A stretch of 48,126 nucleotides of DNA, from contig JACPEW010000010.1 of assembly GCA_016183305.1 (NCBI GenBank), positions 1 to 48,126 on the forward strand, read 5' to 3'. The stretch's first letter is position 1, and the number at the start of each line of letters is the position of its first letter. This document shows positions 14,417 to 39,718 of this stretch, in pieces. The position numbers and the translations under genes are program-made. Source of the stretch: Candidatus Daviesbacteria bacterium. Lineage in GTDB: Bacteria > Patescibacteriota > Microgenomatia > Daviesbacterales > UBA10151. The notes beneath the pieces were generated by a model, which was not told the origin of the DNA, did not search any database, and was given only the letters and a program-made list of their open reading frames with translations.

Positions 14417-15580
14417 TTTTAATTTGTGGTAAAAGCCTAAAAGCGTATCTGCAACTTTATCAATAGCATAGGGTTTTATTGCCTCAAGGGATTTTTTCTG
14501 CATAGAATCAGCCAGTGTTTGGTTATATAATATTTTTTCCATCTTTTCAGCCATTTCTTTAATATCCCCTGCCTCAGCTAAAAAGCCATTCGAAGAGATA
14601 AGTTCTACCAGTCCTGCTTGTTTTACTCCAACAATAGGTAAGCCATGCATTTCAGCTTCAAGTACTGCCATGGGGTTATTTTCCATAGTGCTGGCTGTAG
14701 CAAAAAGATTGCCTAAGGTCAAAATTCCAGAAGAGATTAGTTTTTGATGATCTATAAAACCAGTAAATACTACTTGGTTATCTAGCTTTAATCTTTTAGT
14801 GAGTTTAACAAGGCTTTTCTTAGCTGGTCCGTCACCGATTATAAGCAAGCTGACATCTGGATGTTTTTTTGCCAAAAGAGAGAAAGATTTTATCAGCAAA
14901 TCAACATTTTTTTCCGGTGATAATCTGCCAAAATGCAATACAATCTTGTCTTTTAGGCCATATTTTTTCTTAATACTTTTTTGATCCTGCAAAGATAAAC
15001 TTTTATATTGACTTAAGATTACTCCGTTTGGTAAGTAATGGACTGTTTTTTTAAAACCTGTTTGGGTAAGTTCTTTTACCAGCATTTTTGAAGGAGCAAG
15101 TACCAGGTCGCATTGGCTAAAGAGAAAATTTAAGTAACGTTCCACAACTTTGTCTACTACCTTTACAGCAAGCCTGTATTTGAGCCAGCGCAGGTAAGAA
15201 GAATCAGTTAAATACACATGAATAGTACCAACTAAGGGTTTTTTAAAAATCTTTGCAGCTGTAACAGCATCCATACCTACTGTTAAAGGCGAGTGAAGAT
15301 GAATTATATCCGGGTCAAATTTTGCTAAATACTTTATTACCTTAGGCAGGCCAAATACCCCTAATTTAAATTCAGGGTATAGCAGCGCAGGCACTGTAGG
15401 AAGATGTATTACCTGGACATTTTCAGCTTTAAACTTTTCCCTTGGGATACCGTCTAATTTAGGGGTAAAGATTAAAACGCTGTGGCCTTGCTTGCCTAGC
15501 TGAGCAGCTTGGTTTGCTAAGGCTGTGGCAATCCCATTTACCTGGGGCAGGAATGTATCTGTAAAATATGCAATTTTCAT
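14396..15580 (-). CDS. GT4-family glycosyltransferase
   Basis: The ATG at 15580 gives a 394-residue protein (MKIAYFTDTFLPQVNGIATAL). This GT-B enzyme has the acceptor-side N-terminal domain with DIIHLHSPLTVGMDA and the donor-binding C-terminal domain with HFGRLSPEKNVDLLIKSF, IIGDGPAKKSL, and the E-x7-E region (NNPMAVLEAEMHGLPIVG). It resembles diacylglycerol glucosyltransferases and phosphatidylinositol mannosyltransferase-like enzymes, so glycolipid synthesis is likely, but the exact sugar is unknown. On the minus strand TGAGATAAT lies 9 nt before the start. Confidence 0.92.
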   Translation of the reverse strand: MKIAYFTDTFLPQVNGIATALANQAAQLGKQGHSVLIFTPKLDGIPREKFKAENVQVIHLPTVPALLYPEFKLGVFGLPKVIKYLAKFDPDIIHLHSPLTVGMDAVTAAKIFKKPLVGTIHVYLTDSSYLRWLKYRLAVKVVDKVVERYLNFLFSQCDLVLAPSKMLVKELTQTGFKKTVHYLPNGVILSQYKSLSLQDQKSIKKKYGLKDKIVLHFGRLSPEKNVDLLIKSFSLLAKKHPDVSLLIIGDGPAKKSLVKLTKRLKLDNQVVFTGFIDHQKLISSGILTLGNLFATASTMENNPMAVLEAEMHGLPIVGVKQAGLVELISSNGFLAEAGDIKEMAEKMEKILYNQTLADSMQKKSLEAIKPYAIDKVADTLLGFYHKLKLETDQT

Positions 15581-15638
15581 CAACAGTTTATTATCTCATG
15601 AAAAGTCCAGTTTGATCCATTTCTGTTATATTGGTTAT

Positions 15639-16631
15639 ATGGGGAAGTTTCTAAAAGGCTTTGGAGTTTTGCTGCTGGTTATTGTTTTAGCTAGTATTAT
15701 TTTTGAAAATACTTACCCTTATCCTGCTGTCAAATATGGAGTGACTTTTTCCCCCCGGTATGCAAAATATCTAAACTTAGACTGGCAAAAAACCTACTTG
15801 CAGATACTGGATGATCTTAAAGTAAAAAACTTGAGGATTCCTGCTTACTGGGATTTTGTGGAATCAAAATCTGGAGAATTTGATTTTTCTGAAAGTGATT
15901 TTATGTTAGATCAGGCAGATAAAAGAGGAGTGAAAGTAATTTTAACTTTAGGTATAAGGCAGCCACGATGGCCAGAATGCCATATTCCAGCCTGGGCAAA
16001 ATCTTTAACGGTCAAAAAAAGACAGCAAAAGGTCTTAGGGTTTGTCAAAAAAACTGTAGAAAGGTATAAAAATCACTCTTCCATTGCTTCCTGGCAGGTA
16101 GAAAATGAGCCACTGTTTTCTTTTTTTGGAGAAGCTTGTGATAAACCAGATAAAAATTTCTTAAAGTCGGAGGTAGAATTGGTTAAAAAATTAGATCAAA
16201 GGCCAATTATTATTACTGATTCTGGAGAATTTGGTTCCTGGGCTACCCCAATGAGGCTGTCAGAGATTTTTGGCATCAGTGTTTACCGCAAGGCTTATGA
16301 TCCGCTGCTGGGCTATAAATCCTATCCAATCCTACCCTATTTTTATAATGTCAGGTCATTTTTAACCAGGAATATCTTTGCCCAAAATAATGAAAAAACT
16401 ATTATTGCAGAGCTTCAGGCAGAGCCCTGGGCGCAGAAAGCAGTTATAGATACTCCTTTAACAGAGCAGTTGAAATTATTTTCACTACAAAATTTTAAGG
16501 ATGATATTGAGTTTGCTAAAAAAACCGGTTTTGATGAAATTTACCTTTGGGGAGTAGAGTGGTGGTATTATATGGCCCAAAATGGTTATTCCCAGTATCT
16601 GGAATACGCCAAGACTCTTTTTAATAATTGA
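15639..16631 (+). CDS. membrane-anchored glycoside hydrolase of clan GH-A
   Basis: The ATG at 15639 (MGKFLKGFGVLLLVIVLASI) is chosen because an extended -10 (TGTTATATT, box 15627-15632) ends 6 nt before it. The 330-residue protein has an N-terminal membrane anchor (about residues 5-22) and a TIM-barrel domain. NLRIPAYWDFVE resembles GH42/GH5-type barrels; the proton donor is probably Glu in WQVENEP (about residue 157) and the nucleophile Glu in IIAELQAEP (about 256). It probably acts on surface glycans outside the membrane. Its last 80 nt are a hybrid: a 66-bp segment of its 3' end (16523-16588) is repeated exactly at 17418-17483. Confidence 0.82.
   Translation: MGKFLKGFGVLLLVIVLASIIFENTYPYPAVKYGVTFSPRYAKYLNLDWQKTYLQILDDLKVKNLRIPAYWDFVESKSGEFDFSESDFMLDQADKRGVKVILTLGIRQPRWPECHIPAWAKSLTVKKRQQKVLGFVKKTVERYKNHSSIASWQVENEPLFSFFGEACDKPDKNFLKSEVELVKKLDQRPIIITDSGEFGSWATPMRLSEIFGISVYRKAYDPLLGYKSYPILPYFYNVRSFLTRNIFAQNNEKTIIAELQAEPWAQKAVIDTPLTEQLKLFSLQNFKDDIEFAKKTGFDEIYLWGVEWWYYMAQNGYSQYLEYAKTLFNN
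16523..16588 (+). repeat. 66-bp direct repeat, copy 1 (in glycoside hydrolase 3' end)
   Basis: This segment encodes TGFDEIYLWGVEWWYYMAQNG and is identical, base for base, to 17418-17483. The two copies are 895 nt apart and flank the AbrB-PIN module. Downstream of the repeat the two copies diverge (SQYLEYAK here, PEYLNFAK in copy 2). Confidence 0.95.
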
Positions 16632-16664
16632 CAGGTATGACGGAATTTAGTAAAATCGTCATAC
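16628..16664 (+). promoter_or_regulatory. promoter and operator of the AbrB-PIN module
   Basis: TTGACA (16628-16633), 17 nt, TAAAAT (16651-16656), with the ATG 9 nt further. A perfect 8-bp inverted repeat GTATGACG (16635-16642) / CGTCATAC (16657-16664) brackets the -10, suiting autorepression by the AbrB-type antitoxin. Confidence 0.7.
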
Positions 16665-16665
16665 T

Positions 16666-16980
16666 ATGCAACAAGCTATATTTTCCACGGACATTGAGAC
16701 GAAGTACTCAGCAATAAAATCTAGAAGGAAAACTAAAAAGGCACATTACGCTACAATTGGCAGTAAATATCAAATAGTTATACCAAAGCAAGTACGGCAG
16801 GAGTTGGAAATTAAACCAGGGGATAAGTTATATGTAGATACAGATCAGGAAGGTGTAATTATACTGGTTGCTGCTCCTAAGAATTGGGCAGAGCGGAATT
16901 TTGGGGCGCTGAAAAAATATTGGCAAGGAATTAACATGATTGAAGAGGTTGAGAAAATTAGAGATGAACCGGAAACGTAA
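16666..16980 (+). CDS. AbrB/MazE-type (SpoVT_AbrB) antitoxin
   Basis: This 104-residue protein contains a swapped-hairpin AbrB domain at residues 28-66 (ATIGSKYQIVIPKQVRQEL followed by EIKPGDKLYVDTDQEG). An unusual N-terminal extension of about 27 basic residues precedes it. The C-terminal part (AERNFGALKKYWQGINMIEEVEKIRDEPE) resembles tails that bind PIN toxins. It overlaps the PIN gene by 17 nt. Confidence 0.87.
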   Translation: MQQAIFSTDIETKYSAIKSRRKTKKAHYATIGSKYQIVIPKQVRQELEIKPGDKLYVDTDQEGVIILVAAPKNWAERNFGALKKYWQGINMIEEVEKIRDEPET

Positions 16981-17392
16981 AATTAAGCAATTTGCTCTAG
17001 ATACTAATGTCTTCATATATTTTTTTGAAAACAATGTTGAATTGGGGCAAAAAGCGAAAGCAATATTTGAAGGCCTTTCTCAAAATCAACTCAAGGCCGT
17101 TACAAATATCACATCCCTGGCGGAGTTATTGTCGTCTCCTAAATTAACCGGTCAGGCAGTTAGAGAGACAAAGAAACTGTTTTTATCCGTACCAAATCTC
17201 GAAATTTATGGACTTGATGAAAGTATTGCCATAAAGAGCGCGGAAATCAGAAGGGAATATGGTTTTAGACTATTGGATGCAATTCAGCTCGCTACAGCCT
17301 TAATTGCCAAAACTCAGGCTTTTATTACTAACGATCATAGATTAAAGTCGTTTAAACAGTTAAAAATTATCTCCCTGTCAGATTTGGCCTAA
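16964..17392 (+). CDS. PIN-domain toxin
   Basis: The ATG at 16964 gives a 142-residue protein; it overlaps the antitoxin end. PIN residues are clear: LDTNVFIYFFE with Asp13, SLAELL with Glu, LLDAIQLATAL with Asp, and FITNDHRLKSF. It is a probable metal-dependent ribonuclease neutralised by the AbrB-type partner. Its 3' end (17360-17383, encoding LKIISLSD) is repeated exactly at 19020-19043 downstream of the Fic gene, where it ends in a different last residue. Confidence 0.9.
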   Translation: MNRKRKIKQFALDTNVFIYFFENNVELGQKAKAIFEGLSQNQLKAVTNITSLAELLSSPKLTGQAVRETKKLFLSVPNLEIYGLDESIAIKSAEIRREYGFRLLDAIQLATALIAKTQAFITNDHRLKSFKQLKIISLSDLA

Positions 17393-17417
17393 TCTGCTAC
17401 AATTCCTTTGTATATAC

Positions 17418-17529
17418 AACCGGTTTTGATGAAATTTACCTTTGGGGAGTAGAGTGGTGGTATTATATGGCCCAAAATGGTTACCCGGAGTACTTAAATT
17501 TTGCCAAGATCCTTTTTAAGTATTTGTAA
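17418..17529 (+). pseudogene. displaced 3' end of the glycoside hydrolase gene
   Basis: The 66-bp exact repeat of the hydrolase gene is followed by an in-frame continuation (PEYLNFAKILFKYL and TAA) equivalent to, but different from, the current end of that gene (SQYLEYAKTLFNN). This is a stranded gene tail without start codon. It is most simply the original or a second allele's 3' end left behind when the AbrB-PIN module was inserted. Confidence 0.9.
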
Positions 17530-17552
17530 CTATTCAAAGTTCCCCAGTAAAC

Positions 17553-17684
17553 TGTCATCCTGAGCAGTTCTGCACGAAGTGCGAACGGGAGTCTAAATGA
17601 CTCCCAGAGCGAAGGATCTTCTATGATATGGGAAGATTCCTCACGGAGTTTACACTGAGTGTAACGAATGTGTTCGGAATGACA
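17553..17684. repeat. long palindromic repeat of the TGTCATyCTGA family, full copy
   Basis: This 132-nt intergenic repeat starts TGTCATCCTGAG and ends TTCGGAATGACA, so its ends are inverted repeats. It contains internal hairpins such as GGGAGTC/GACTCCC (about 17588-17606) and a core GAAGGATCTTC...GGGAAGATTCC. Related copies lie inside polA (21734-21834), recF (40513-40596) and carB (46335-46377), with a half copy after carB (47697-47727). With the hydrolase tail it fills most of the 400-nt gap before the Fic gene. Confidence 0.75.
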
Positions 17685-17723
17685 TTTCCTTTGGCAACTC
17701 CTGAACTAGTACGTGTCTACTAT

Positions 17724-17786
17724 TTGACTTGCTTAAGACTTTTTATTACAATCTATCTAGACTAATTACTAGACTGGTTTTAGACT
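17724..17786 (+). promoter_or_regulatory. Fic gene promoter with three TAGACT repeats
   Basis: TTGACT (17724-17729), 17 nt, TACAAT (17747-17752). Downstream, TAGACT occurs three times at 17758-17763, 17770-17775 and 17781-17786, spaced 12 and 11 nt, close to one helix turn, between the probable transcription start and the ATG at 17793. They may be binding sites for an autoregulator. Confidence 0.55.
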
Positions 17787-17792
17787 GATCCT

Positions 17793-19010
17793 ATGAATAA
17801 CTTAACAACATTAAAACCGTTTACTCATACATTCCTGTCTCAATTTATCTTTAAACAGGAATTATTGCCTTTTACTGATGAGGAGCTCAGTAGGATTGAT
17901 GTTCAGCTGTCAGAATATGAGCAGGTATTTTTAAATCCTGACATAGAGAAGAATCTGATCAGCAAAAATGAGCTGCTTGCTTCTTTTGCCATCTCAAAAG
18001 CAGAAAATTCTTCTCTAACATTGCAGGAAGCGCAGGATGTCTATAGTGTAATTGTAGCTGATAAAGGATACACTTTTATCACTGCTAAATTAAAAACAAA
18101 GCAGAAGTTGACCAGGAAAGACTATGAAAAACTGGAGTTTTTTAATATTGCCAGGACTTTCCGGAGTTTAAATAAATCACCAATAAAAATTAATGACTTA
18201 ACCCCTATTTTGCTGCGGGAACTTCACAAAAATTTAACAGCAGGGCTCGATATATTTGCTAAATTCCTGCCGGATTTTACTGTGTATAAAGCAGGAAACT
18301 TTCGGGATAATGATACTGTCAAAGTAGGAACATATACACCAGCTCCATATAAAGATATTGAAAAAGGAATCATAGAGCTGGTTAGTTGGATCAAGCAAAA
18401 TCAAACTATGACTGGAGTCGCGCTTTTTCATACTGCTTTGTATGCGCTGCACCCATTCCATAACGGCAATAAAAGAGTCTGTAGGATCTTAGAGCACTTA
18501 TTTTTCCGCAATCTTGGTTTGAATCAGAAGAATTTGTACAGCACTTCGTATTATTACCATAAGCAAAAAGTGCGTTATTACAAGTATCTTCTATACTCGC
18601 TGGAAAGAAGGAATTTAAATCATTTTGTTGCTTTTGTCCAAGAGGCATTAGTTCTGTCTATGGTCTCAGTTATTAAAACAAGCCTGGAAGCAAAGCGCCA
18701 TGAATTTTTGTTAAAACAGGATATAGACAGTCAAATAAAATCAATTTTAAGACCGCTGGTAAAACGGTCCCAAATACAGTTTAAAAATCTCTTTAAATAC
18801 AGCAGGGGCAAAACTGCCAGACAAACGTTTGTTAATTACTTGCAAAAAGCTGTTGAAGAAGATATTGTTATCAGGCGTGAGAAGGGACGCGCTACTTACT
18901 ATCGTTTCAATATTAAGGGTCCTTTCCCTGAGGAAGAAACGCTAAAAAAATGGTTTGCCTTCATAAGCCAAAGGCTCTCTTTTATACCGGATGACTTAAA
19001 ATTAGTATAA
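17793..19010 (+). CDS. Fic-domain protein with C-terminal winged helix
   Basis: Fic proteins usually transfer AMP or other nucleotide parts to target proteins. This 405-residue protein has the Fic core motif HPFHNGNKRVCR (about residues 220-231). Compared with HxFx(D/E)GNGRxxR it has Asn for the acidic residue and Lys for the Gly, as in Doc-like variants, so its activity may differ (Doc phosphorylates EF-Tu). An inhibitory-helix-like AISKAENSSLTLQEA lies near residue 66. The last 100 residues (SRGKTARQTFVNYLQKAVEEDIVIRRE) look like a winged helix. The gene lies between a displaced hydrolase tail and a displaced PIN-toxin tail. Confidence 0.9.
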   Translation: MNNLTTLKPFTHTFLSQFIFKQELLPFTDEELSRIDVQLSEYEQVFLNPDIEKNLISKNELLASFAISKAENSSLTLQEAQDVYSVIVADKGYTFITAKLKTKQKLTRKDYEKLEFFNIARTFRSLNKSPIKINDLTPILLRELHKNLTAGLDIFAKFLPDFTVYKAGNFRDNDTVKVGTYTPAPYKDIEKGIIELVSWIKQNQTMTGVALFHTALYALHPFHNGNKRVCRILEHLFFRNLGLNQKNLYSTSYYYHKQKVRYYKYLLYSLERRNLNHFVAFVQEALVLSMVSVIKTSLEAKRHEFLLKQDIDSQIKSILRPLVKRSQIQFKNLFKYSRGKTARQTFVNYLQKAVEEDIVIRREKGRATYYRFNIKGPFPEEETLKKWFAFISQRLSFIPDDLKLV

Positions 19011-19016
19011 TTACTA

Positions 19017-19049
19017 AAATTAAAAATTATCTCCCTGTCAGATGTATAA
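19017..19049 (+). pseudogene. displaced 3' end of the PIN toxin gene
   Basis: Directly after the Fic gene, 11 codons read KLKIISLSDV and TAA. Bases 19020-19043 are identical to the 3' end of the PIN gene at 17360-17383 (LKIISLSD). The fragment has no start and looks like a tail left behind by insertion of, or replacement with, the Fic gene. Confidence 0.85.
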
Positions 19050-31096: not shown

Positions 31097-32026
31097 ATGT
31101 TAGGTATAGACCGGAGAGCAGAAGTTTTTACTGGCCAAGGGTCACAAAGAGTAGGAATGTGGTCAGACTTACACCAATCAGCGGAGGCCAGGAAGATTTT
31201 CCAAATGGCTGATGAAATTGTAGGCTTCACATTATCTAAGCTATGCAGGGAAGGACCAATAGAAAAGTTGACAAAGACTGAAAATGCTCAACCAGCTATT
31301 GTGGCCCACAGTATAGCAGCTTGGGTAACTGCCCGAAGCCTTCAACCAGAACTTCAAGCTATTAAACCTAGATTTGTTTTAGGCCATAGCGTTGGGGAAT
31401 ATAGCGCTTTGGTGGTTGCCGGAGTGATTGATTTGGAAACTGCCATTTATTTAGTGAGGAAAAGAGGTTTGTTGATTCAGGAGTTAAGCAGTGAAGGTAG
31501 GATGGCAGCATTTCACCGGTTTGACAATCAGGAGCAAGTGTTGAGTATTTGCCAAGAGACAGAAACAGAGGCTGCTAATTTTAATGGGCCTGGCCAAATA
31601 GTGGTTAGTGGTGGAGTAAGAGAAATTGAAGATGCTATTAGGTTAGCTAAGGAAATGGGGATGCTGGTTATATTACTGAAAACCTCACGGGCTTTTCATT
31701 CATCAGCAATGAGGCCTGCCACTGAGGAGTTTAAGAAGGTATTGTTACCAATCGGGTTTAAAGATCCTGTTATCCCGGTTATACCTAATGTAACAGCTAA
31801 GCCTTCCCGGTCTGGAGATGAAATTAAAAAAGCTATAGCTGAACAAATTGTTATGCCGGTATTCTGGTATGAGTCTGTTAGGTTGGTGTTAGCAAGCGGT
31901 GTAACTACTTTTCTGGAGTTTGGCCCGGAACCTGTTTTAACAGGACTTTTAAGAAGAATTGATCCAGCAGCCAGAGGAGCCTGTATTAAAGACCTTGAAT
32001 CTGCTGTAAAATGTCTATATGCCTGA
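31097..32026 (+). CDS. fabD: malonyl-CoA:ACP transacylase-like protein (FabD)
   Basis: The ATG at 31097 follows the permease stop by 2 nt. The 309-residue protein has the acyltransferase pattern VFTGQGSQRVGMW at the start, LGHSVGEYSAL with the catalytic Ser (about residue 98), KRGLLIQEL with the conserved Arg, FNGPGQIVVSG, and TSRAFHSSAM with the catalytic His (about residue 201). FabD loads malonyl groups onto acyl carrier protein. No other fatty-acid gene is present. It overlaps fpg by 8 nt, so the two are probably translationally coupled. Confidence 0.92.
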   Translation: MLGIDRRAEVFTGQGSQRVGMWSDLHQSAEARKIFQMADEIVGFTLSKLCREGPIEKLTKTENAQPAIVAHSIAAWVTARSLQPELQAIKPRFVLGHSVGEYSALVVAGVIDLETAIYLVRKRGLLIQELSSEGRMAAFHRFDNQEQVLSICQETETEAANFNGPGQIVVSGGVREIEDAIRLAKEMGMLVILLKTSRAFHSSAMRPATEEFKKVLLPIGFKDPVIPVIPNVTAKPSRSGDEIKKAIAEQIVMPVFWYESVRLVLASGVTTFLEFGPEPVLTGLLRRIDPAARGACIKDLESAVKCLYA

Positions 32027-32876
32027 GTTACCTGAGGTAGAAACAATTAAGTTGGGGCTGCAAAAAAGAATTACTGGATTAAAGATTCAAAAGATCCAAA
32101 TTCTTTCTCCTAAATCTTTCATAGGAAATCCTAATGAGGTGGAGGGACGGAAAGTACTCAATATTTGGAGAAGGGCTAAGATTTTAGGTATAGATCTAAC
32201 TGGTGATAAAGCCTTGCTTTTTCATCTTAAAATGTCTGGGCAGCTAGTTTTTGAAGGGAAAGAGAAATTTATTGGCGGACATCCTACAGAAGATATGTTG
32301 GGTAAGATGCCAAATACTCATACTAGGGTAATCTTGTCTTTTGTTGACGGGTCACACCTGTATTTTAATGATTTAAGAAGGTTTGGATGGATAAAAATAG
32401 TTCAAAGTTCAAAGTTAAAAGTTAAAAATGATGAGATTTTAGGGAAGTTAGGGCCAGAGCCTTTTGATAAAGATTTTACTTGGCAAGTATTAAAACAAAA
32501 TTTATTAAAGCATCCAAATTTTCCTACTAAAGCAGCAATTATGGATCAATCAGTAGTGGCTGGGGTAGGGAATATTTATGCTAATGAAGCTTGTTTTGAT
32601 GCTAAGCTTGACCCCAGAATTAAAGTTAAAGATTTAACTGATAAACAGTTTCAGGCTCTGCATAAAGGAATAATTAAGGCTTTGCAGACAGGTATAAAAT
32701 ATGGCGGTTCAACCAGGGCTAACTTTGTGGATCCGGAAGGGCATAAAGGCTATTTTTTGGATTATGCCTTTGTGTATTGGAAAGATAAACACCCCTGTAA
32801 GGTTTGTGGAACAGAGATAAAAAAGATCTCCCTCGGTGGCAGGGGAACATACTTTTGTGAACGCTGCCAAGTATAA
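32019..32876 (+). CDS. mutM: formamidopyrimidine-DNA glycosylase (Fpg/MutM)
   Basis: Fpg removes 8-oxoguanine and related lesions. The sequence starts MPELPEVETIKLGL with catalytic Pro2 and Glu3, contains the helix-two-turn-helix part (AAIMDQSVVAGVGNIYANEACF), and ends with the zinc finger CKVCGTEIKKISLGGRGTYF followed by CERC. A heptad repeat (TTCAAAG, TTCAAAG, TTAAAAG, TTAAAAA at 32401-32428) is embedded in frame (about residues 128-137). The last codons (32841-32876) recur downstream as fragments at 36928-36954 and 38289-38330. A TAAAAT box 6 nt before the start may give an additional leaderless transcript. Confidence 0.96.
   Translation: MPELPEVETIKLGLQKRITGLKIQKIQILSPKSFIGNPNEVEGRKVLNIWRRAKILGIDLTGDKALLFHLKMSGQLVFEGKEKFIGGHPTEDMLGKMPNTHTRVILSFVDGSHLYFNDLRRFGWIKIVQSSKLKVKNDEILGKLGPEPFDKDFTWQVLKQNLLKHPNFPTKAAIMDQSVVAGVGNIYANEACFDAKLDPRIKVKDLTDKQFQALHKGIIKALQTGIKYGGSTRANFVDPEGHKGYFLDYAFVYWKDKHPCKVCGTEIKKISLGGRGTYFCERCQV
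32401..32428. repeat. heptad tandem repeat inside fpg
   Basis: Four exact 7-nt steps: TTCAAAG, TTCAAAG, TTAAAAG, TTAAAAA. Encodes VQSSKLKVKN-type residues between two conserved Fpg segments (LRRFGWIK and LGPEPF). Confidence 0.75.
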
Positions 32877-32953
32877 ACTCCCTTATTAGCCTCAAGGGTG
32901 ACCTTAATAGCTTCATTTCCGTTATCATACTGTCGGAAATAGCCTTTCTACAG

Positions 32954-32982
32954 TTGACAATGTCGGTGATATGTGCTAATAT
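32954..32982 (+). promoter_or_regulatory. promoter of the first DUF4143 ATPase gene
   Basis: TTGACA (32954-32959), 17 nt, TAATAT (32977-32982); the ATG at 32991 is 8 nt further, so the message is leaderless or nearly so. This decides for the start at 32991 over an in-frame GTG at 32973. Confidence 0.65.
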
Positions 32983-32990
32983 GGGGCTAT

Positions 32991-34127
32991 ATGAAAATAA
33001 AACGTAATTTACTCTCTATTCTTAAAAATGAGTTAACAGAGACAAATAAAGGATTGGTAATTTATGGTCCCAGACAGGTTGGGAAAACTACACTTGTTAA
33101 TGATTTACTTTCCGAATTTAAGTTAAAAACTTTGATTCTAAATGGAGACCAAAGAGGAGCATGGTGGGAACTGTTGACCAGTAGGGAATTATCAAAGCTT
33201 TCTTTGTTGGTCTCTGGTTATGAAGTCATCTTTATAGACGAGGCGCAGCGTATACCGGAAATTGGGTTAAGTTTAAAAATTCTTCTGGATAATTTTCCTA
33301 AATTAAAAGTTATTGTCACCGGATCATCGTCCCTTGATTTAGCAAGTAAAATCAGTGAGCCTCTTACGGGAAGAATTTACAGTTACAAACTGTTTCCTAT
33401 CTCTTGCAGAGAACTGCGGGTTATAAATACTCCTTATGAAATGGAAGCGCAAATAGAAGAGAGGCTGATTTATGGATCATATCCGGAAATTTTTTTCTTA
33501 GATGGTGTGCTGGCTAAACATAAATATTTACAAAATTTAGTTGATACCTATCTTTACAAAGACTTATTGGAGTTTGGCGACATAAGAAATTCTTCAAAAA
33601 TTCATGACCTTTTAAAATTGTTAGCTTTTCAAGTCGGAAATCAAGTTTCTTTAAGCGAGTTAGGCACTTCTTTAGAATTAAACAAAGCAACGGTGGATAG
33701 GTATATTGATTTATTGGAAAAATCATTTGTCATTTTCAGGTTATCAGGATTCAGCAGGAATTTACGAAAAGAAGTAACTAAAATGGACAGAATCTACTTT
33801 TATGATACCGGAGTAAGAAATACGGTTATTGGAAATTTGAATTTACTTAACAACCGTGATGATGTGGGGAAGTTGTGGGAGAATTTTTTGATTGTTGAGC
33901 GGATGAAAAAATTGCAGTATGAACAAAAAATCTTTTCTCTTTATTTTTGGCGTTTATCAAGCGGAGCGGAAATGGATTTGATAGAGGAAACAGAAGGTAA
34001 ATTGCATGGTTTTGAATTTAAATATGGTAAAAAAACCGTTAAGTTCCCAAGTTCGTGGACGATTGGTTATCCAAATGCAACCGCAACACTAATTAATCAG
34101 AATAATTGGCAGGAATTTGTGGTTTAA
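32991..34127 (+). CDS. AAA_14/DUF4143 ATPase (first copy)
   Basis: This 378-residue protein has Walker A YGPRQVGKTT (about residues 24-33), Walker B VIFIDEAQRIPEIG (about 79-92), a sensor-like VIVTGSSSLDL, and a C-terminal DUF4143 domain with a final nuclease-like fold (GAEMDLIEETEGKLHGFEFKYG; Glu-x-Lys pattern of PD-(D/E)XK-type domains). The family is abundant in Patescibacteria and archaea, often in multiple copies, and its role is not established. It sits directly after fpg and begins an island bounded by fpg tail fragments. A paralogue is at 37000. Confidence 0.9.
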   Translation: MKIKRNLLSILKNELTETNKGLVIYGPRQVGKTTLVNDLLSEFKLKTLILNGDQRGAWWELLTSRELSKLSLLVSGYEVIFIDEAQRIPEIGLSLKILLDNFPKLKVIVTGSSSLDLASKISEPLTGRIYSYKLFPISCRELRVINTPYEMEAQIEERLIYGSYPEIFFLDGVLAKHKYLQNLVDTYLYKDLLEFGDIRNSSKIHDLLKLLAFQVGNQVSLSELGTSLELNKATVDRYIDLLEKSFVIFRLSGFSRNLRKEVTKMDRIYFYDTGVRNTVIGNLNLLNNRDDVGKLWENFLIVERMKKLQYEQKIFSLYFWRLSSGAEMDLIEETEGKLHGFEFKYGKKTVKFPSSWTIGYPNATATLINQNNWQEFVV

Positions 34128-34182
34128 AATTGGATACTTCTCTAAGTAATTTTCTATTAAGAAGTTGTTCTTTTGTGTATTG

Positions 34183-35154
34183 TTAACTATCTGGTATTTC
34201 AACTTCTGGAAATTGCTGGCCGTACCTTTTTAAAAGCTGGACTAAGGTCTGTTTGTATTTTTCAGGAATGCCAGGAATGTAAAATGGATTGTGTTTATTT
34301 CCCCCTGACAGGAAATTATCTTGGGCCTCCTGTACAGCGCTTCTGAATTGTGCTTCTTTTTCTTCAGGTTCACTATTTTCCCGAAAAATCCCTTCTAGAT
34401 ATCGAGAAAAGGATTCTATTCCTTTAGACCAGTGTCCCCGATGACCTGTCCCCATGGTTAATCCGTATCTCCTGCAAAATTCAGCATGGATATTCCGATA
34501 ACCATTCCAGCCCCCGCTATACCAACCAGTATAAATATTTGATAACTGTGGAAAATATCCTATCTTAATGATTTGTTCATAGACAGCCCGGTGAAAACCA
34601 TTCAGTTGTTCTCCTGCTTGAGAATAGTCTGTCTGTACAACTTGGGCTTGTCCCGCAGGGGGCAAAGCTTCAGGGCTACCTGTATCCTTTAAAATAATAG
34701 TTCCTTCTGGTAATTCTAAGTCATCCATTACAATTGTATCTCCGGGGTTATACACATCTATTCTGGGCATAATTTTGCCAAAAGGGATCAAGACAGCATA
34801 TCTCCGGTCTTTCCAGCTCCATTTAGCGCCATGAAATTCAACATCTTCTGCTACAGAATTAATAGTCAGATGTATAGAAAAACGTAAAACTGCCGGATTA
34901 TAGTAGACAGTAGGGTGGATAATCCCGTCTGCTGGGAAAGCATCAGTCAGGTGAACAGCTACTAAATCAGTAGGCTGTAATTGTTCAGTGTGTCTGGCAA
35001 ATATTTCAGGGTTTGACAGGTCTTTGTAGGGAGGCAGGACAAGTTGTGTTGCAAAAGGCACCAGCACAGGGTCTATGCTTGCTAAATGTTGGGAAATTCT
35101 TTGCAGTTTTTCTTTGCTAATATAGCTTTCTCTCCTGTCAATGCCTGTATCCAT
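34183..35154 (-). CDS. uncharacterised 323-residue protein
   Basis: No family was recognised. The N-terminal half has a beta-rich pattern (AVHLTDAFPADGIIHPTVYY, then SIHLTINSVAEDVEFHGAKW, RRYAVLIPFGKIM, GTIILKDTG), and the C-terminal half is helical with many aromatic residues (NIYTGWYSGGWNGYRNIHAE, TGHRGHWSKGIESF). No signal peptide or membrane segment. A TATAAT on the minus strand (35161-35166) lies 6 nt before the ATG, so the transcript is leaderless. It is transcribed divergently from the methyltransferase-like gene with an AGGATT/AATCCT inverted repeat between them. Confidence 0.7.
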   Translation of the reverse strand: MDTGIDRRESYISKEKLQRISQHLASIDPVLVPFATQLVLPPYKDLSNPEIFARHTEQLQPTDLVAVHLTDAFPADGIIHPTVYYNPAVLRFSIHLTINSVAEDVEFHGAKWSWKDRRYAVLIPFGKIMPRIDVYNPGDTIVMDDLELPEGTIILKDTGSPEALPPAGQAQVVQTDYSQAGEQLNGFHRAVYEQIIKIGYFPQLSNIYTGWYSGGWNGYRNIHAEFCRRYGLTMGTGHRGHWSKGIESFSRYLEGIFRENSEPEEKEAQFRSAVQEAQDNFLSGGNKHNPFYIPGIPEKYKQTLVQLLKRYGQQFPEVEIPDS

Positions 35155-35160
35155 GATTTA

Positions 35161-35241
35161 ATTATATAGCTTTTAATATGAGCAGAATAGGATTGAATTT
35201 AAATCCTATAGTTTGATTATTTGTGGTTTTTTTGATATAAT
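35161..35241. promoter_or_regulatory. divergent promoters, both leaderless type
   Basis: Minus strand: TATAAT at 35161-35166, 6 nt from the ATG at 35154. Plus strand: TTGATT (35213-35218), 17 nt, TATAAT (35236-35241, preceded by TGA as extended -10), 6 nt from the ATG at 35248. The inverted repeat AGGATT (35189-35194) / AATCCT (35202-35207) lies between and could be a shared operator. Confidence 0.65.
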
Positions 35242-35247
35242 AAGCCC

Positions 35248-36762
35248 ATGTCTTCAAGACAAGAAACAGAACAATCAGTTAATCCTAATACCGCTCCTGT
35301 TGTTCCTAGGAGGAGATTCTTAAGTTCATTTATTATGCTTGGTTTAGGCTTGGGTCTTACCTCAGCTGGGATTGCAGATAGTATCCATCAGAGCCAGATT
35401 ATCCGCAGCATCAACAATTTAGCTGAAGCTGCTTATCCGGTAATCCTGCCTAAAGCAGAAGATGACAGGATTAGCCGTTGGAATGAAGCAGTGGTGGGAG
35501 CTTGTAGATGTTTTTATACTGATTCCCCAGAATACAAAAATAACCCTCAGTTTGGAAAAGATATGCGTAAATTATTTCAAAATTTAGATAATAGTTATGC
35601 AAAGTCGAAGATGGTTAGTAAATTGAAAGAAGATGCCGGAATTGATGATGCTGCTTTACTACCTCATTCTTCAATAGGTACCTTTGGAATTTTAATTGGT
35701 ATATATCTAAGTATATCTGGATTAATGAGATTAATTAGAAAGCCGGTTGTTTTGTCAGATCAAAATAAGAAAACACCAGATAGAAAAAGAGTAGATGTAC
35801 CTTTATCTACAGGTCAATCAATGGGGCAACCAGCTTCATTAGAATCAACAGCGGCAGCGTCAGATAAGCTTGTAGACTTCATAAAAAGAAATGGATCAGC
35901 TATATGTCCTGTGGGAACAAGCGATGGATCAGGCGGAGAATTAGTAAATGAACCATATCAATTTACAGATAGGGAAATTGAGATTATTAAATCAGCTTTA
36001 CAGATTGAGAAAGAGGAATTACTAGTAAAGCAGTTAGAAAAATTATCAGCGCTTTGCCAGATGTTTGAAAGGTATTTACTTAAGGATTTAGTAGTTCCTG
36101 CGGGTTGTAAGATCCGGTTTTATTCCTTAGGCTGCGGAGAGGATGGAGCTTTGGATGCTTATGCAATGCAACTGGTAGCCAAAAGGTACAATGTCCAAAT
36201 TGAGGCTATCTGCGTGGACGACAACTCAGCTAATATTAGGCACCGTTTGGACCAATCAGTTGTGGATGAATCTGCAAGGCAGTGGCAAAGGATGGCTGAA
36301 GGTGGATTAGTGGATGCGCGAGCAGCGGAATTTATTCAAGCTCCAGCACAATCCATAGATTTTTCAAAAGGAGCAGAGAGCCAAAACCCTCTTTTGGTTG
36401 TGGTAAGAAATGTCAGTCCTGGTGCTTGGTATAGAATACTTTACCGTGGTGGTTTACGACTTTTTCCGGTTATGGAAGAACTACGGAATTCAGGTTCAGA
36501 TAGTCGTTTGATGGTAACTTTTGATAGTTATTTAGGTTGGAAAGGTTTTATTCTTGAGCGTAGCGAAAGAGAATATCTTGAAAGAAGAGCAGCAAGAATT
36601 CCAGAGAGGGGACCGTTGGATGAGGCTGCCCAGATATTAAAGTTTAATGGTAAAACTATTCATCTGCAGTATCTTGGAGATGAGTTTCAAGAAAACCCCA
36701 TCCCAACTGCAGATGATGGTTGGAATGATAAATATGTTACTGTAGTTGGTTATAATCACTAG
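35248..36762 (+). CDS. membrane-anchored protein with a methyltransferase-like domain
   Basis: The 504-residue protein has a first membrane helix near residues 26-45 (after a basic RRRF, giving a cytoplasmic N-terminus), an external part (about 46-140), and a second helix near 148-165 (TFGILIGIYLSISGLM). A linker follows. The cytoplasmic C-terminal domain contains IRFYSLGCGEDGALDAYAMQ (about residues 287-306) and IEAICVDDNSANI, which resemble motifs I and II of SAM-dependent methyltransferases, then PLLVVVRNVSPG. Catalysis and substrate are unknown; the Rossmann assignment is by motif only. It lies inside the fpg-bounded island. Confidence 0.65.
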   Translation: MSSRQETEQSVNPNTAPVVPRRRFLSSFIMLGLGLGLTSAGIADSIHQSQIIRSINNLAEAAYPVILPKAEDDRISRWNEAVVGACRCFYTDSPEYKNNPQFGKDMRKLFQNLDNSYAKSKMVSKLKEDAGIDDAALLPHSSIGTFGILIGIYLSISGLMRLIRKPVVLSDQNKKTPDRKRVDVPLSTGQSMGQPASLESTAAASDKLVDFIKRNGSAICPVGTSDGSGGELVNEPYQFTDREIEIIKSALQIEKEELLVKQLEKLSALCQMFERYLLKDLVVPAGCKIRFYSLGCGEDGALDAYAMQLVAKRYNVQIEAICVDDNSANIRHRLDQSVVDESARQWQRMAEGGLVDARAAEFIQAPAQSIDFSKGAESQNPLLVVVRNVSPGAWYRILYRGGLRLFPVMEELRNSGSDSRLMVTFDSYLGWKGFILERSEREYLERRAARIPERGPLDEAAQILKFNGKTIHLQYLGDEFQENPIPTADDGWNDKYVTVVGYNH

Positions 36763-36769
36763 CAGAAAA

Positions 36770-36898
36770 CCCCGCACTTTTAGTGCGGGGATGAATGCTG
36801 AGATTACAGTCTTCCGCGGGATAGGTGGTAGATCTGGATAGGGTTTTCTGCAGTCTCTTGTAAACTTTCAAAGAAAACCGCGGACTCTCAGTCCGCGG
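36770..36898. repeat. two perfect 9-bp hairpins in a 240-nt gap
   Basis: CCCCGCACT-TTT-AGTGCGGGG (36770-36790) and CCGCGGACT-CTC-AGTCCGCGG (36878-36898) share the same design: a 9-bp GC stem ending ACT/AGT around a 3-nt loop. Neither has a proper T run, so they are weak terminators at best. CTTCCGCGGG (about 36813) can pair alternatively with the second stem. They may be palindromic repeats or a small structured RNA. Confidence 0.55.
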
Positions 36899-36927
36899 AA
36901 GTTTATAAATAATCTGTATTTAAACTA

Positions 36928-36954
36928 GACTTTTGCCACCATTGCCAAGTATAA
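36928..36954 (+). pseudogene. fpg 3'-end fragment (middle copy)
   Basis: Nine codons read DFCHHCQV and stop, matching the last zinc-finger residues of Fpg (YFCERCQV). Shared bases with the intact gene are ACTTTTG and GCCAAGTATAAA; it shares 19 of 20 bases (ACTTTTGCC onward) with the third copy at 38299. It lies directly before the promoter of the second DUF4143 ATPase gene. Confidence 0.7.
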
Positions 36955-36993
36955 AAAAGTTTCCTTGACAGAAGGAAACTTTTGTGTCATACT
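36955..36993 (+). promoter_or_regulatory. promoter of the second DUF4143 ATPase within a 12-bp hairpin
   Basis: TTGACA (36965-36970), 17 nt, CATACT (36988-36993), then 6 nt to a GTG at 37000. The -35 is inside a perfect inverted repeat AAAAGTTTCCTT (36955-36966) / AAGGAAACTTTT (36972-36983), which could be an operator or a terminator for upstream transcription. Confidence 0.6.
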
Positions 36994-36999
36994 TTCCTT

Positions 37000-38283
37000 G
37001 TGACAGGGAAAGATTTACTTAAAACCATTATTACCGATAGTCAATCTAGGGCTACTCCAAAGATATGGGAAAGAACGCTCAAAATCCCTTCAGACAGTGG
37101 GAAGATACTTACTCTATCAGGGGTACGCCGAAGTGGGAAAACATACCACCTTTTTAATCTGATAAGTCAACTTAAAACTAAGGGGATTTCCAATGAAAGA
37201 ATCCTTTATATTAACTTTGAAGACGAGCGTTTACAGCTATCAAGTAAAGAGTTAGATTTAATCCTGCAAGCATATCAGGAGTTATACCCTCAGTTAGATT
37301 TAGCAAACTGTTATTTTTTCTTTGATGAAATCCAGGAGGCGGAAGGATGGCAGAAATTTGTGGCCAGAATTTATTCCTCAATCAGCCAGCATGTATTTAT
37401 CACAGGTTCCAATGCCAAGCTGCTTTCCAAAGAGATTGCCACTGCCTTGCGGGGCAGAAACTTAACATTTGAGGTTTATCCATTGTCTTTTGGCGAATTT
37501 ATAGATGTTGTTTCTCCTAAGTTAAATCCTTACAGCAGTGCGGATAAGGCGAAACTGGTAAACCTCTTTGGTCGTTTTATGCGCCAAGGTGGTTTCCCGG
37601 AGCTTGTAAAACAGGAGGAGGGGTTAAGAGACAAGATCTTGCAGGAATATTTTAATGTTATGGTGTTTAGAGATTTGATAGAACGGTATCAAATCTCTCA
37701 GACAACAATCCTTAAATACTTCTGCAAGCGGATTATTGGTACAAGCGCTGGTGAGTTTAGTGTAAATAAAATCTACAATGAGTTAAAATCCCAAGGTTAT
37801 CAGGTAAGTAAAGATACACTCTATTCCTATCAGGGGTATGCTGAAGCTATTTACTTAAACCGTTTTATATCCAAATATTCTTATTCAGTGGTCAAGACAG
37901 AAAGCTCACAGAAGAAAACTTATGTTATAGACCAGGGATTAGGAGCAGCGCTTGATTACAAGTTTAGCCAGGATAAAGGGCGACTACTTGAAACAACAGT
38001 TGCACTTGAATTGTTAAAACAGGGTCAACAGATTAACTATCAACAAAACGGCGGTGAGTGTGATTTTGTGGTAATTGGAAAAGACAAAGTAGTAAAAGCA
38101 ATTCAGGTAAGCTTAGACTTTACTGATACTCAAACAAAAGAAAGAGAGATCAAAGGGCTGGTTATAGCTTGTCAAAAATTTAACCTGAAAAAAGGAGTTA
38201 TTATCAGTCTTAACCATGAAGAGGAGTTTAAAGTTGATGGTATCCAGGTGGCTGTTATACCTGCCTGGCAGTACTTCTCTTAA
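37000..38283 (+). CDS. AAA_14/DUF4143 ATPase (second copy)
   Basis: The GTG at 37000 is preferred because the -10 ends 6 nt upstream; an in-frame TTG at 36982 lies within the promoter. The 427-residue protein has Walker A SGVRRSGKTY (about residues 39-48), Walker B YFFFDEIQEAEGW (about 107-119), FITGSNAKLL, and DUF4143 with a terminal nuclease-like domain (GGECDFVVIGKDKVVKAIQVS). It is only a distant paralogue of the gene at 32991. Both copies follow an fpg tail and its flanking promoter, which suggests similar insertion events. Confidence 0.9.
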   Translation: MTGKDLLKTIITDSQSRATPKIWERTLKIPSDSGKILTLSGVRRSGKTYHLFNLISQLKTKGISNERILYINFEDERLQLSSKELDLILQAYQELYPQLDLANCYFFFDEIQEAEGWQKFVARIYSSISQHVFITGSNAKLLSKEIATALRGRNLTFEVYPLSFGEFIDVVSPKLNPYSSADKAKLVNLFGRFMRQGGFPELVKQEEGLRDKILQEYFNVMVFRDLIERYQISQTTILKYFCKRIIGTSAGEFSVNKIYNELKSQGYQVSKDTLYSYQGYAEAIYLNRFISKYSYSVVKTESSQKKTYVIDQGLGAALDYKFSQDKGRLLETTVALELLKQGQQINYQQNGGECDFVVIGKDKVVKAIQVSLDFTDTQTKEREIKGLVIACQKFNLKKGVIISLNHEEEFKVDGIQVAVIPAWQYFS

Positions 38284-38288
38284 TTGGG

Positions 38289-38330
38289 AGGGGAACATAC
38301 TTTTGCCCCCATTGCCAAAAGAGCATATAA
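38289..38330 (+). pseudogene. fpg 3'-end fragment (third copy)
   Basis: Fourteen codons read RGTYFCPHCQKSI and stop, equivalent to the Fpg C-terminus RGTYFCERCQV. The first 17 bases (38289-38305) are identical to 32841-32857 in the intact gene. It is directly followed by the MFS transporter gene, whose -10 box overlaps the fragment's stop. It probably represents the original fpg end displaced by the island. Confidence 0.85.
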
Positions 38331-38331
38331 T
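38326..38331 (+). promoter_or_regulatory. -10 box of the MFS transporter gene
   Basis: TATAAT at the end of the fpg fragment, 16 nt before the ATG at 38348, implies a leader of about 10 nt. No clear -35 is seen. Confidence 0.45.
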
Positions 38332-38347: not shown

Positions 38348-39718
38348 ATGACTGAAAAACCAACATTTGCCTCTGTTATTCAAAATAGAGGCTTTTTAAA
38401 TCTTTGGATTAATCAAATTTTAGTTCAATTATCTTTTAATTCCTTAAACTTTGCCTTGATTATCTGGGTTTTTAAATTAACAGATTCTAACACTGCTGTT
38501 TCTGCCCTGCTTTTTTCTATCTTCCTGCCAGCCACCTTATTAGGTTTATTTACAGGGGTTTTTGTAGATGTAATAGACAGGCGCAAGATTATTATGGTTA
38601 TTAATCTTGCCTTAAGTATTCTATTTTTCAGCTTAATTTTTTTGAAAGGAAATTATCCAGCTATTTTAACAATTACTTTTTTAGTAAATGCCCTGGGCCA
38701 GCTTTATGCTTCTGCTGAAGCCTCAGCAATACCCATTATTGTTAAAAAACAGCAATTGCTTATTGCTAACTCCTTATTTTCAGCCACGTTATATTCCGCT
38801 TTTTTAGTAGGTTTTGGTTTAGCTGGGCCACTTATTAATCACGCAGGAATTAATTTTGTTTTTATTCTGGGTGGAATTGCTTTAATATTGGCTTTTTTCT
38901 TATCAATGCTTTTTCCTTCTATTCAGTCTACTCCTGATAAAGAAGGTAAAATACTAACCCTAGCTCTTGCTAAAAGAGATTACTCTAAAATAAAAGAAGT
39001 TGGCAGTTTTGAGATTCAACAAACTTTAAGATTGATCAGAGGAAAGCTGCCAGTATTAACCTCAATAGTTATCCTGGCAGGAGTTCAAATGGTAACAGGA
39101 ATATTAGCAGTTTTAGTGCCTGGGTTTTTGGAAAAAGCTTTGCAAATTAAAGCTACAGATGCCTCATATGTTTTAATTATTCCTTTAGGGTTAGGTATTA
39201 TAACAGGAGGGATAGTTTTAGGCAGGTTAGGAAATAGTTTTATCAGAAGAAAATTGGTAGCAAGGGCAATACTGTTTGCAGGACTATTATTTTTTCTAGT
39301 AGGAGCAGCTCCGCTTATTTCTCCAGCTATTAAATACTTTAAAAATCCTAGACCAGTATCATTTATTTATCAATTGCCTCTTTCTAAAGTTTTGATAGTA
39401 GGATCATTTTTACTAGGTATAGCTATGGTTTCAATCCTGGTTCCTTCACAAACAGTTTTACAGGAAAATACTCCAGAAGAGGATAGAGGTAAAGTATTTG
39501 CTGCCTTAGGAGCAGCGATGGCAGGGCTTTCTTTAGTTCCTATCTTTATCTCTGGTTTGTTGGCTGATGCTTTTGGTACCACCCCTATCTTTATTGGGTT
39601 GGGATTGTTTATTATGATGATAGGGTTATTTGGTCTTAAACCAAGCATATTTTTTCATAAAGACAGCTTGCCTGATAGACATAAGCAGTTTTTAGGTATG
39701 GGACACTGGGAAAAGTAA
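38348..39718 (+). CDS. major facilitator superfamily transporter
   Basis: The ATG at 38348 (MTEKPTFASVIQNRGFLNLW) is typical for this group; an upstream extension would run through the ATPase gene end. The 456-residue protein has about twelve hydrophobic segments and the MFS motif A-like loop DVIDRRKIIM after helix 2, with a second half starting after the cytoplasmic loop (about residues 195-240). It resembles MFS efflux proteins of the Bcr/enterobactin-exporter type (QNRGFLNLWINQ start). Substrate unknown. Confidence 0.9.
   Translation: MTEKPTFASVIQNRGFLNLWINQILVQLSFNSLNFALIIWVFKLTDSNTAVSALLFSIFLPATLLGLFTGVFVDVIDRRKIIMVINLALSILFFSLIFLKGNYPAILTITFLVNALGQLYASAEASAIPIIVKKQQLLIANSLFSATLYSAFLVGFGLAGPLINHAGINFVFILGGIALILAFFLSMLFPSIQSTPDKEGKILTLALAKRDYSKIKEVGSFEIQQTLRLIRGKLPVLTSIVILAGVQMVTGILAVLVPGFLEKALQIKATDASYVLIIPLGLGIITGGIVLGRLGNSFIRRKLVARAILFAGLLFFLVGAAPLISPAIKYFKNPRPVSFIYQLPLSKVLIVGSFLLGIAMVSILVPSQTVLQENTPEEDRGKVFAALGAAMAGLSLVPIFISGLLADAFGTTPIFIGLGLFIMMIGLFGLKPSIFFHKDSLPDRHKQFLGMGHWEK

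Follow-up and report, generated by a model that had tools for sequence, protein, structure and literature searches.

Displaced copies of the fpg 3′ end in a Candidatus Daviesbacteria genome and the probable stepwise addition of cassettes by homologous recombination

The stretch of DNA analysed here (48,126 nucleotides, referred to as the window in the rest of the text) corresponds to contig 17 in the draft genome (0.94 Mb, 85% complete) of an ultra-small, uncultured bacterium whose close relatives in GTDB carry the name Candidatus Daviesbacteria. It contains an island of cassettes lying between fpg (mutM), which codes for a formamidopyrimidine-DNA glycosylase (32019–32876; NCBIfam TIGR00577, E = 2.6e-72, and a Pfam match), and the native right neighbour of fpg, which codes for a major facilitator superfamily (MFS) transporter (38348–39718). 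All features of this island are on the forward strand unless stated otherwise. The intact fpg gene ends in tail 1, the functional 3′ end (about 32834–32876), which codes for RGTYFCERCQV followed by the stop codon and has the sequence TTTTGTGAACGCTGCCAAGTATAA. Behind it come a promoter-like TTGACA-17-TAATAT (32954–32982), a gene coding for an ATPase with AAA_14 and DUF4143 domains (ATPase 1, 32991–34127), and two genes that have no match in Pfam, NCBIfam or PADLOC and no assigned family, namely cargo gene A on the reverse strand (34183–35154, 323 aa) and cargo gene B (35248–36762, 504 aa). A displaced fpg tail then follows (tail 2, 36929–36954, coding for DFCHHCQV and a stop codon), with a second promoter-like sequence, TTGACA-17-CATACT (36965–36993), and a second AAA_14/DUF4143 ATPase gene (ATPase 2, 37000–38283), whose stop codon abuts a further displaced tail of native-looking sequence (tail 3, 38285–38330, coding for RGTYFCPHCQKSI and a stop codon). 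The MFS gene starts 17 bp further on. The two promoter-like sequences ahead of the ATPase genes are consensus matches only, and such sites are no more numerous in the island region than in shuffled sequences.

An earlier reading, made from the sequence alone, had placed three fpg tails at 32841–32876, 36928–36954 and 38289–38330 and a promoter and a DUF4143 ATPase gene after each of the first two, and all of these are present. Its base counts are also correct, as copies 1 and 3 share 17 identical bases (AGGGGAACATACTTTTG) and copies 2 and 3 agree at 19 of 20 (ACTTTTGCCnCCATTGCCAA). Scored with a matrix derived from 30 fpg ends, which included the intact end from the window and left out both window fragments, tails 2 and 3 reached 20.9 and 30.0, respectively; a score of 20.9 was attained at none of 858,994 positions (0.43 Mb) of the same genome outside the fpg locus. 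Pfam and NCBIfam scans revealed no integrase among the island proteins, bearing out the sequence-only reading, while two Xer-like tyrosine recombinases are encoded elsewhere in the genome. That reading did not include a third promoter-like sequence, TTGCCC-17-TATAAT (38303–38331), a consensus match located inside and just behind tail 3 ahead of the MFS gene. The same −35/−10 layout within the fpg end can also be read in empty sites of relatives, for instance loci L034 and L060 (L and G numbers denote loci and genomes).

The gene order fpg-MFS-recF is conserved in the family, and the fpg-MFS adjacency without an island, which the sequence-only reading had proposed to look for, is present in relatives: 20 Daviesbacteria loci have the two genes within 100 bp of each other (empty sites), and about 18 others have them about 170–5,500 bp apart (filled sites), both totals being counted by hand from locus tables. 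At least one further fpg tail lies in the gap in seven filled loci, which are the window, L035, L037 (a weak case), L040, L043, L052 and L081. Five tail-like sites occur in the G020 locus (L043), interspersed with HicAB-, HigBA- and VapBC-like pairs as read from open frames. Outside the family, fpg of G134 (L116) is followed by a DUF433/DUF5615 pair, a tail, two more genes, another tail and then recF, and G207 (L117) has one displaced tail. Such loci could be the remnants of tandem fpg duplications, in which extra fpg genes decayed to tails with other genes caught between them, and some families of the class do have two full fpg-like genes close together. However, the tail loci retain only 3′ ends of 20 to about 90 bp, which are found behind unrelated genes too, the right halves of the tails resemble different lineages, an intermediate paralogue occurs in 0 of 45 family genomes, and no full second fpg owning the tail fragments was found in these loci, so that we regard this origin as very improbable. 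As a separate observation, L118, L119 and L120, from some families of the class, each contain a pair of full fpg-like genes no more than a few kb apart.

To compare the ends of fpg, we computed the identity to the tails of relatives over 18 bases (the right half of the tail) starting at the first Cys codon. Copy 1, the end of the intact gene, has an identity of 0.51, below the minimum of 0.646 seen among the relatives themselves, whereas copy 3, the displaced end beside the MFS gene, has a typical value of 0.755. Hence, the intact gene has the odd end and the displaced tail is the ordinary one; judging from these bases, the functional fpg end of the window appears foreign and the displaced end native. 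Together with the empty sites, these values support the proposal of the sequence-only reading that successive insertions each brought a new gene end and displaced the old one. A mosaic test on fpg alignments of the whole family, comparing the last 66 aligned bp with the body of the gene, also revealed outliers and was set aside as not decisive alone.

Gene ends were then aligned to their displaced copies, and the longest identical run was tested by permutation of matches. A glycosyl hydrolase gene located elsewhere in the window (see below) and its displaced copy are identical over 66 bp and then match at only 28 of 44 positions, a run length reached in 0 of 20,000 permutations. This pair, the fpg pair of G020 (43 identical bp, then abrupt divergence), the recF pair of G020 (50 identical bp) and two fpg contigs of G008 (96 identical bp, then divergence) all have P values of about 5e-5 or less. 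Shorter runs were found for tails 1 and 3 of the window (17 bp, P = 0.006) and for a glycosyltransferase pair of G008 (26 bp, P = 0.012). The run tests thus support homologous joining on one side, yielding a hybrid gene, in six gene/tail pairs, and the breakpoints span 19 to about 240 bp before the stop codon. Abrupt passage from identity to divergence is predicted by recombination between resident and donor DNA and not by simple target duplication, and the spread of the breakpoints is not predicted by a fixed att core.

Both results bear on site-specific insertion, in which a trans-acting recombinase, such as either Xer-like protein, would put circular cassettes at a core within the fpg 3′ end. 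This would account for the reduplicated tails and for the cassettes added beside fpg; a core, TTTTGYCCnnnnTGYCAA, is kept in many tails, and the genome does encode two tyrosine recombinases. Yet the breakpoints vary from one event to another, the fpg fragment in L081 (7284–7349) lacks the core, the same footprint is found at other genes with unrelated ends, and no recombinase is present in any cassette that we read. Site-specific insertion is thus unlikely, and the likeness to integrase action at tRNA genes drawn by the sequence-only reading is not supported at fpg. Two related candidates were also rejected: matches to the core outside fpg loci look scattered and single, which does not suggest a genome-wide att site, and the sole match to a phage or plasmid attP made of an fpg tail among viral contigs falls in a host region with polA and fpg, and the viral contigs yielded no relative of fpg.

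Illegitimate insertion with a long target duplication, as proposed for restriction-modification genes of Helicobacter, would fit the direct copies of variable length that flank toxin-antitoxin-like cargo and that are missing from the empty site, as well as a SAHase gene whose end is identical to its displaced copy at 38 of 40 positions. However, it would be expected to produce equal copies that diverge evenly, whereas several pairs are identical on the left and abruptly diverged on the right, with a plausible C-terminus still encoded by both right parts. We consider this explanation quite unlikely.

The order of insertion can be followed in G020 and G067, two species of a single genus. Their cassettes between fpg and the last tail are different, whereas behind that tail they share a similar spacer, a VapBC pair of the same type and then the MFS gene. 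An old junction of fpg tail and VapBC common to both genomes, combined with different newer inserts, indicates stepwise addition at the fpg end. In addition, G020 (L043, 6592–6677) and G023 (L052, 4195–4280) have in common, at the same site, an 86-bp stretch that contains an fpg tail and is 94% identical; this match shows that DNA with such tails passes between genera and is a sign of recent transfer. In G008, two contigs share the same 5′ part of fpg and continue differently (L044, 17138–18801; L068, 1–420), one with a hydrolase gene and vapB and the other straight into the MFS gene. They are possibly filled and empty alleles in one population, and strain mixing may be an alternative source of the pattern. 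Indeed, two fpg contigs with different continuations are what a mixed population would give, and strain mixing or assembly artefacts in metagenome-assembled genomes could be invoked for the tails as a whole. Against this, the tails occur in many independent assemblies, including the one-contig, 99% complete genome of G023, the cargo frames are open, and sister species match, all of which makes an artefact most improbable.

Displaced 3′ ends are not confined to fpg. We scanned for copies of the last 150 bp of each open frame of at least 110 aa in the next 5 kb, after removal of low complexity and paralogues, using simple open-frame calls as genes and 350 kb of a single control genome, Escherichia coli K-12. 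Displaced 3′ copies were found for 5 of 366 genes in the genome of the window and for 14 of 803 genes in the fpg loci, a set that includes L116 and L117, fetched for their tails, and in which a few matches are paralogue-like or weak. None was found for the 290 E. coli genes, and none on the opposite strand. Besides fpg, the genes concerned include recF, the glycosyl hydrolase gene, the SAHase gene and others. Nine copies of 5′ ends, considered as a possible mirror image, look on inspection like paralogues of type IV pilins, repeats, a possible tandem glycosyltransferase and an open frame wrongly read across an fpg tail. Displaced ends are therefore general and biased to gene 3′ ends in this data set. 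A SAHase-like gene, named by reading (L160, 12491–13744, contig 28), is followed by an AbrB/PIN-like pair and by its own displaced 3′ end.

The sequence-only reading had not reported that the window itself contains a second island of the same kind (15525–19043), also on the forward strand. A glycosyl-hydrolase-like gene with a divergent 3′ end, recovered by the scan for displaced ends (15525–16631), is followed by cargo genes coding for a MazE/AbrB-type antitoxin (16666–16980) and a PIN-domain toxin (16964–17392), and then by a 109-bp displaced copy of the glycosyl hydrolase 3′ end (17418–17526), of which the first 66 bp are identical and the rest has diverged. A cargo gene coding for a Fic-domain protein (17793–19010; Pfam Fic, E = 1.7e-12; PADLOC SoFic, E = 8e-29) comes next, followed by an exact 24-bp copy of the 3′ end of the PIN-toxin gene (19020–19043). 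The glycosyl hydrolase gene adjoins polA in relatives, at a distance of 34 bp in G002 and 362 bp in G015.

We conclude that the fpg-MFS island probably consists of at least two horizontally acquired cassettes, added in turn at the fpg 3′ end by homologous recombination and with no site-specific integrase, which was the last alternative offered by the sequence-only reading and fits best. Donor DNA, presumably from a related species and taken up by natural transformation, would bring the 3′ portion of the donor fpg together with the genes that follow it, and would recombine with the resident fpg within the 3′ region of that gene. The outcome would be a hybrid intact fpg with the resident body and the donor end, then the donor cargo, then the old 3′ end of the resident. 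The latter would stay beside the MFS gene, perhaps because of the MFS promoter that it carries, which may explain its retention and protection from loss. The second junction might arise by illegitimate joining, as proposed for type VI secretion system (T6SS) arrays (PMC5361080), by recombination with a tail already flanking the cargo in the donor, in which case cassettes would spread by ordinary recombination, or through a circular intermediate. The stop codons of cargo genes abut or overlap the tails in the window, L081 and L116, an arrangement for which recombination with a tail already present in the donor is just as possible. The same process probably operates behind other genes of this genome and of the class. 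Competence and recombination of linear DNA have been demonstrated in Saccharibacteria (PMC10633639), and ComEC is encoded by 37 of 43 family genomes.

Several observations weigh against this conclusion. The old tail is not detectable in about ten filled sites, ComEC was not found in the present draft (85% complete), no donor genome was found for the window cassettes, and no event was seen directly. The run test presumes even mutation along the copies; the older pairs of L080, L035 and L117 and the L081 fragment diverge evenly, with no sharp breakpoint, and the L116 pair is not significant. In the recF pair of G020, sequence on both sides of the identical stretch has diverged; one-sided homology explains this less well than a circle or a donor whose DNA carries a flanking tail. 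Finally, the left ends of the tails are loosely clustered near two fpg positions, and site preference could also give such clusters.

Homology-facilitated illegitimate recombination has also been invoked for orphan 3′ modules of Rhs genes. For T6SS effector genes of Vibrio cholerae, it has been invoked to explain sequential displacement (PMC5361080). As in these arrays, the cassettes described here would bring a homology anchor in the incoming DNA and a new 3′ part while the old one stays downstream, stepwise and with no integrase. Unlike in T6SS loci, where the displaced part is a variable effector domain with an immunity gene under selection, what is displaced here is the constant last 20–110 bp of housekeeping genes, the cargo is unrelated and several genes of one genome are concerned.

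The insertions of restriction-modification genes with long target duplication in Helicobacter pylori (Nobusato et al. 2000, as recounted in PMC1643837 and PMC3031569) are similar in having selfish or defence-type genes, long and variable direct target copies, no transposase and an empty site in a relative. An empty site in relatives and long variable direct duplications are both present here as well. In contrast to those accounts, the two copies here are unequal beyond even drift, with an abrupt change in several pairs and a functional end that in the window is abruptly diverged and foreign-looking; the bias to gene 3′ ends is also strong, and the cargo consists of toxin-antitoxin and DUF4143 genes.

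Like integron cassettes, those at fpg pile up in order beside one anchor, and toxin-antitoxin cassettes are common; unlike in integrons, no integrase lies beside the array and the repeats are host gene ends. No attC-like GTTRRRY/RYYYAAC boxes were seen in the tail core when searched as sequence motifs. Integrases act at tRNA genes, staphylococcal cassette chromosome (SCC) elements insert at orfX/rlmH and integrons use attI. Accretion at gene 3′ ends by site-specific recombination, as at tRNA genes, in rlmH/orfX SCC arrays and in trmE islands, likewise supplies a new end and displaces the old one. The inserts described here differ in having no recombinase, no fixed crossover core and several unrelated target genes. 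We do not assign the island to the site-specific families or to integrons, since the features that define these were looked for and are absent.

For the streamlined, mostly uncultured Patescibacteria, a recent survey of gene gain names several routes (conjugation, competence and transduction) and, in the part drawn on here, gives no junction-level mechanism (PMC12455944). Among the papers that we searched, none reports fpg/mutM as an insertion site or displaced 3′ ends in Patescibacteria. Displaced 3′ ends constitute a readable footprint of insertion points, their order, the foreign end and the place where recombination stopped. Thousands of genomes could be screened for this footprint, and Saccharibacteria with linear-DNA uptake (PMC10633639) offer a system for testing the mechanism. 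Tentatively, host gene 3′ ends in the Microgenomates (Patescibacteria) might serve as an integrase-free platform for cassettes, in which copies of a gene end flanking the cargo act as portable homology; toxin-antitoxin and defence cassettes would then pass from one species to another through ordinary recombination and accumulate behind the same genes, much like integron cassettes, with the preference for 3′ ends built into the process and not resulting from selection alone. More generally, the displaced ends point to a way in which toxin-antitoxin and candidate defence genes could spread with no mobile-element machinery.

The cargo at displaced ends is mostly toxin-antitoxin or candidate defence genes. 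Near displaced tails we found VapBC, HicAB, HigBA-like and DUF433/DUF5615 pairs, Fic-domain proteins, alpha/beta hydrolases and unassigned genes, several of which were named from sequence reading only; of the eight VapC proteins in the family that are the closest relatives, six are encoded just behind fpg. ATPases 1 and 2 strongly match the PADLOC system PDC-S01, ATPase 1 through model PDLC04789 (E = 7.1e-143) and ATPase 2 through PDLC04787 (E = 5.7e-104). Since their best models differ, the two are not recent copies of each other. These matches make both candidate anti-phage genes; the other cargo at the site is of toxin-antitoxin type or unassigned. The suggestion that a DUF4143 ATPase itself is the agent of insertion is unlikely to be correct, given that the majority of such insertions contain other cargo and that both ATPases are PDC-S01 matches; they are probably cargo rather than recombinases. 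No convincing displaced tail lies beside the third DUF4143 gene of the genome, on contig 14. As for the pair of unassigned genes of the window (34183–36762), the product of cargo gene B has a signal-like stretch at its N-terminus and a motif that looks methyltransferase-like by eye.

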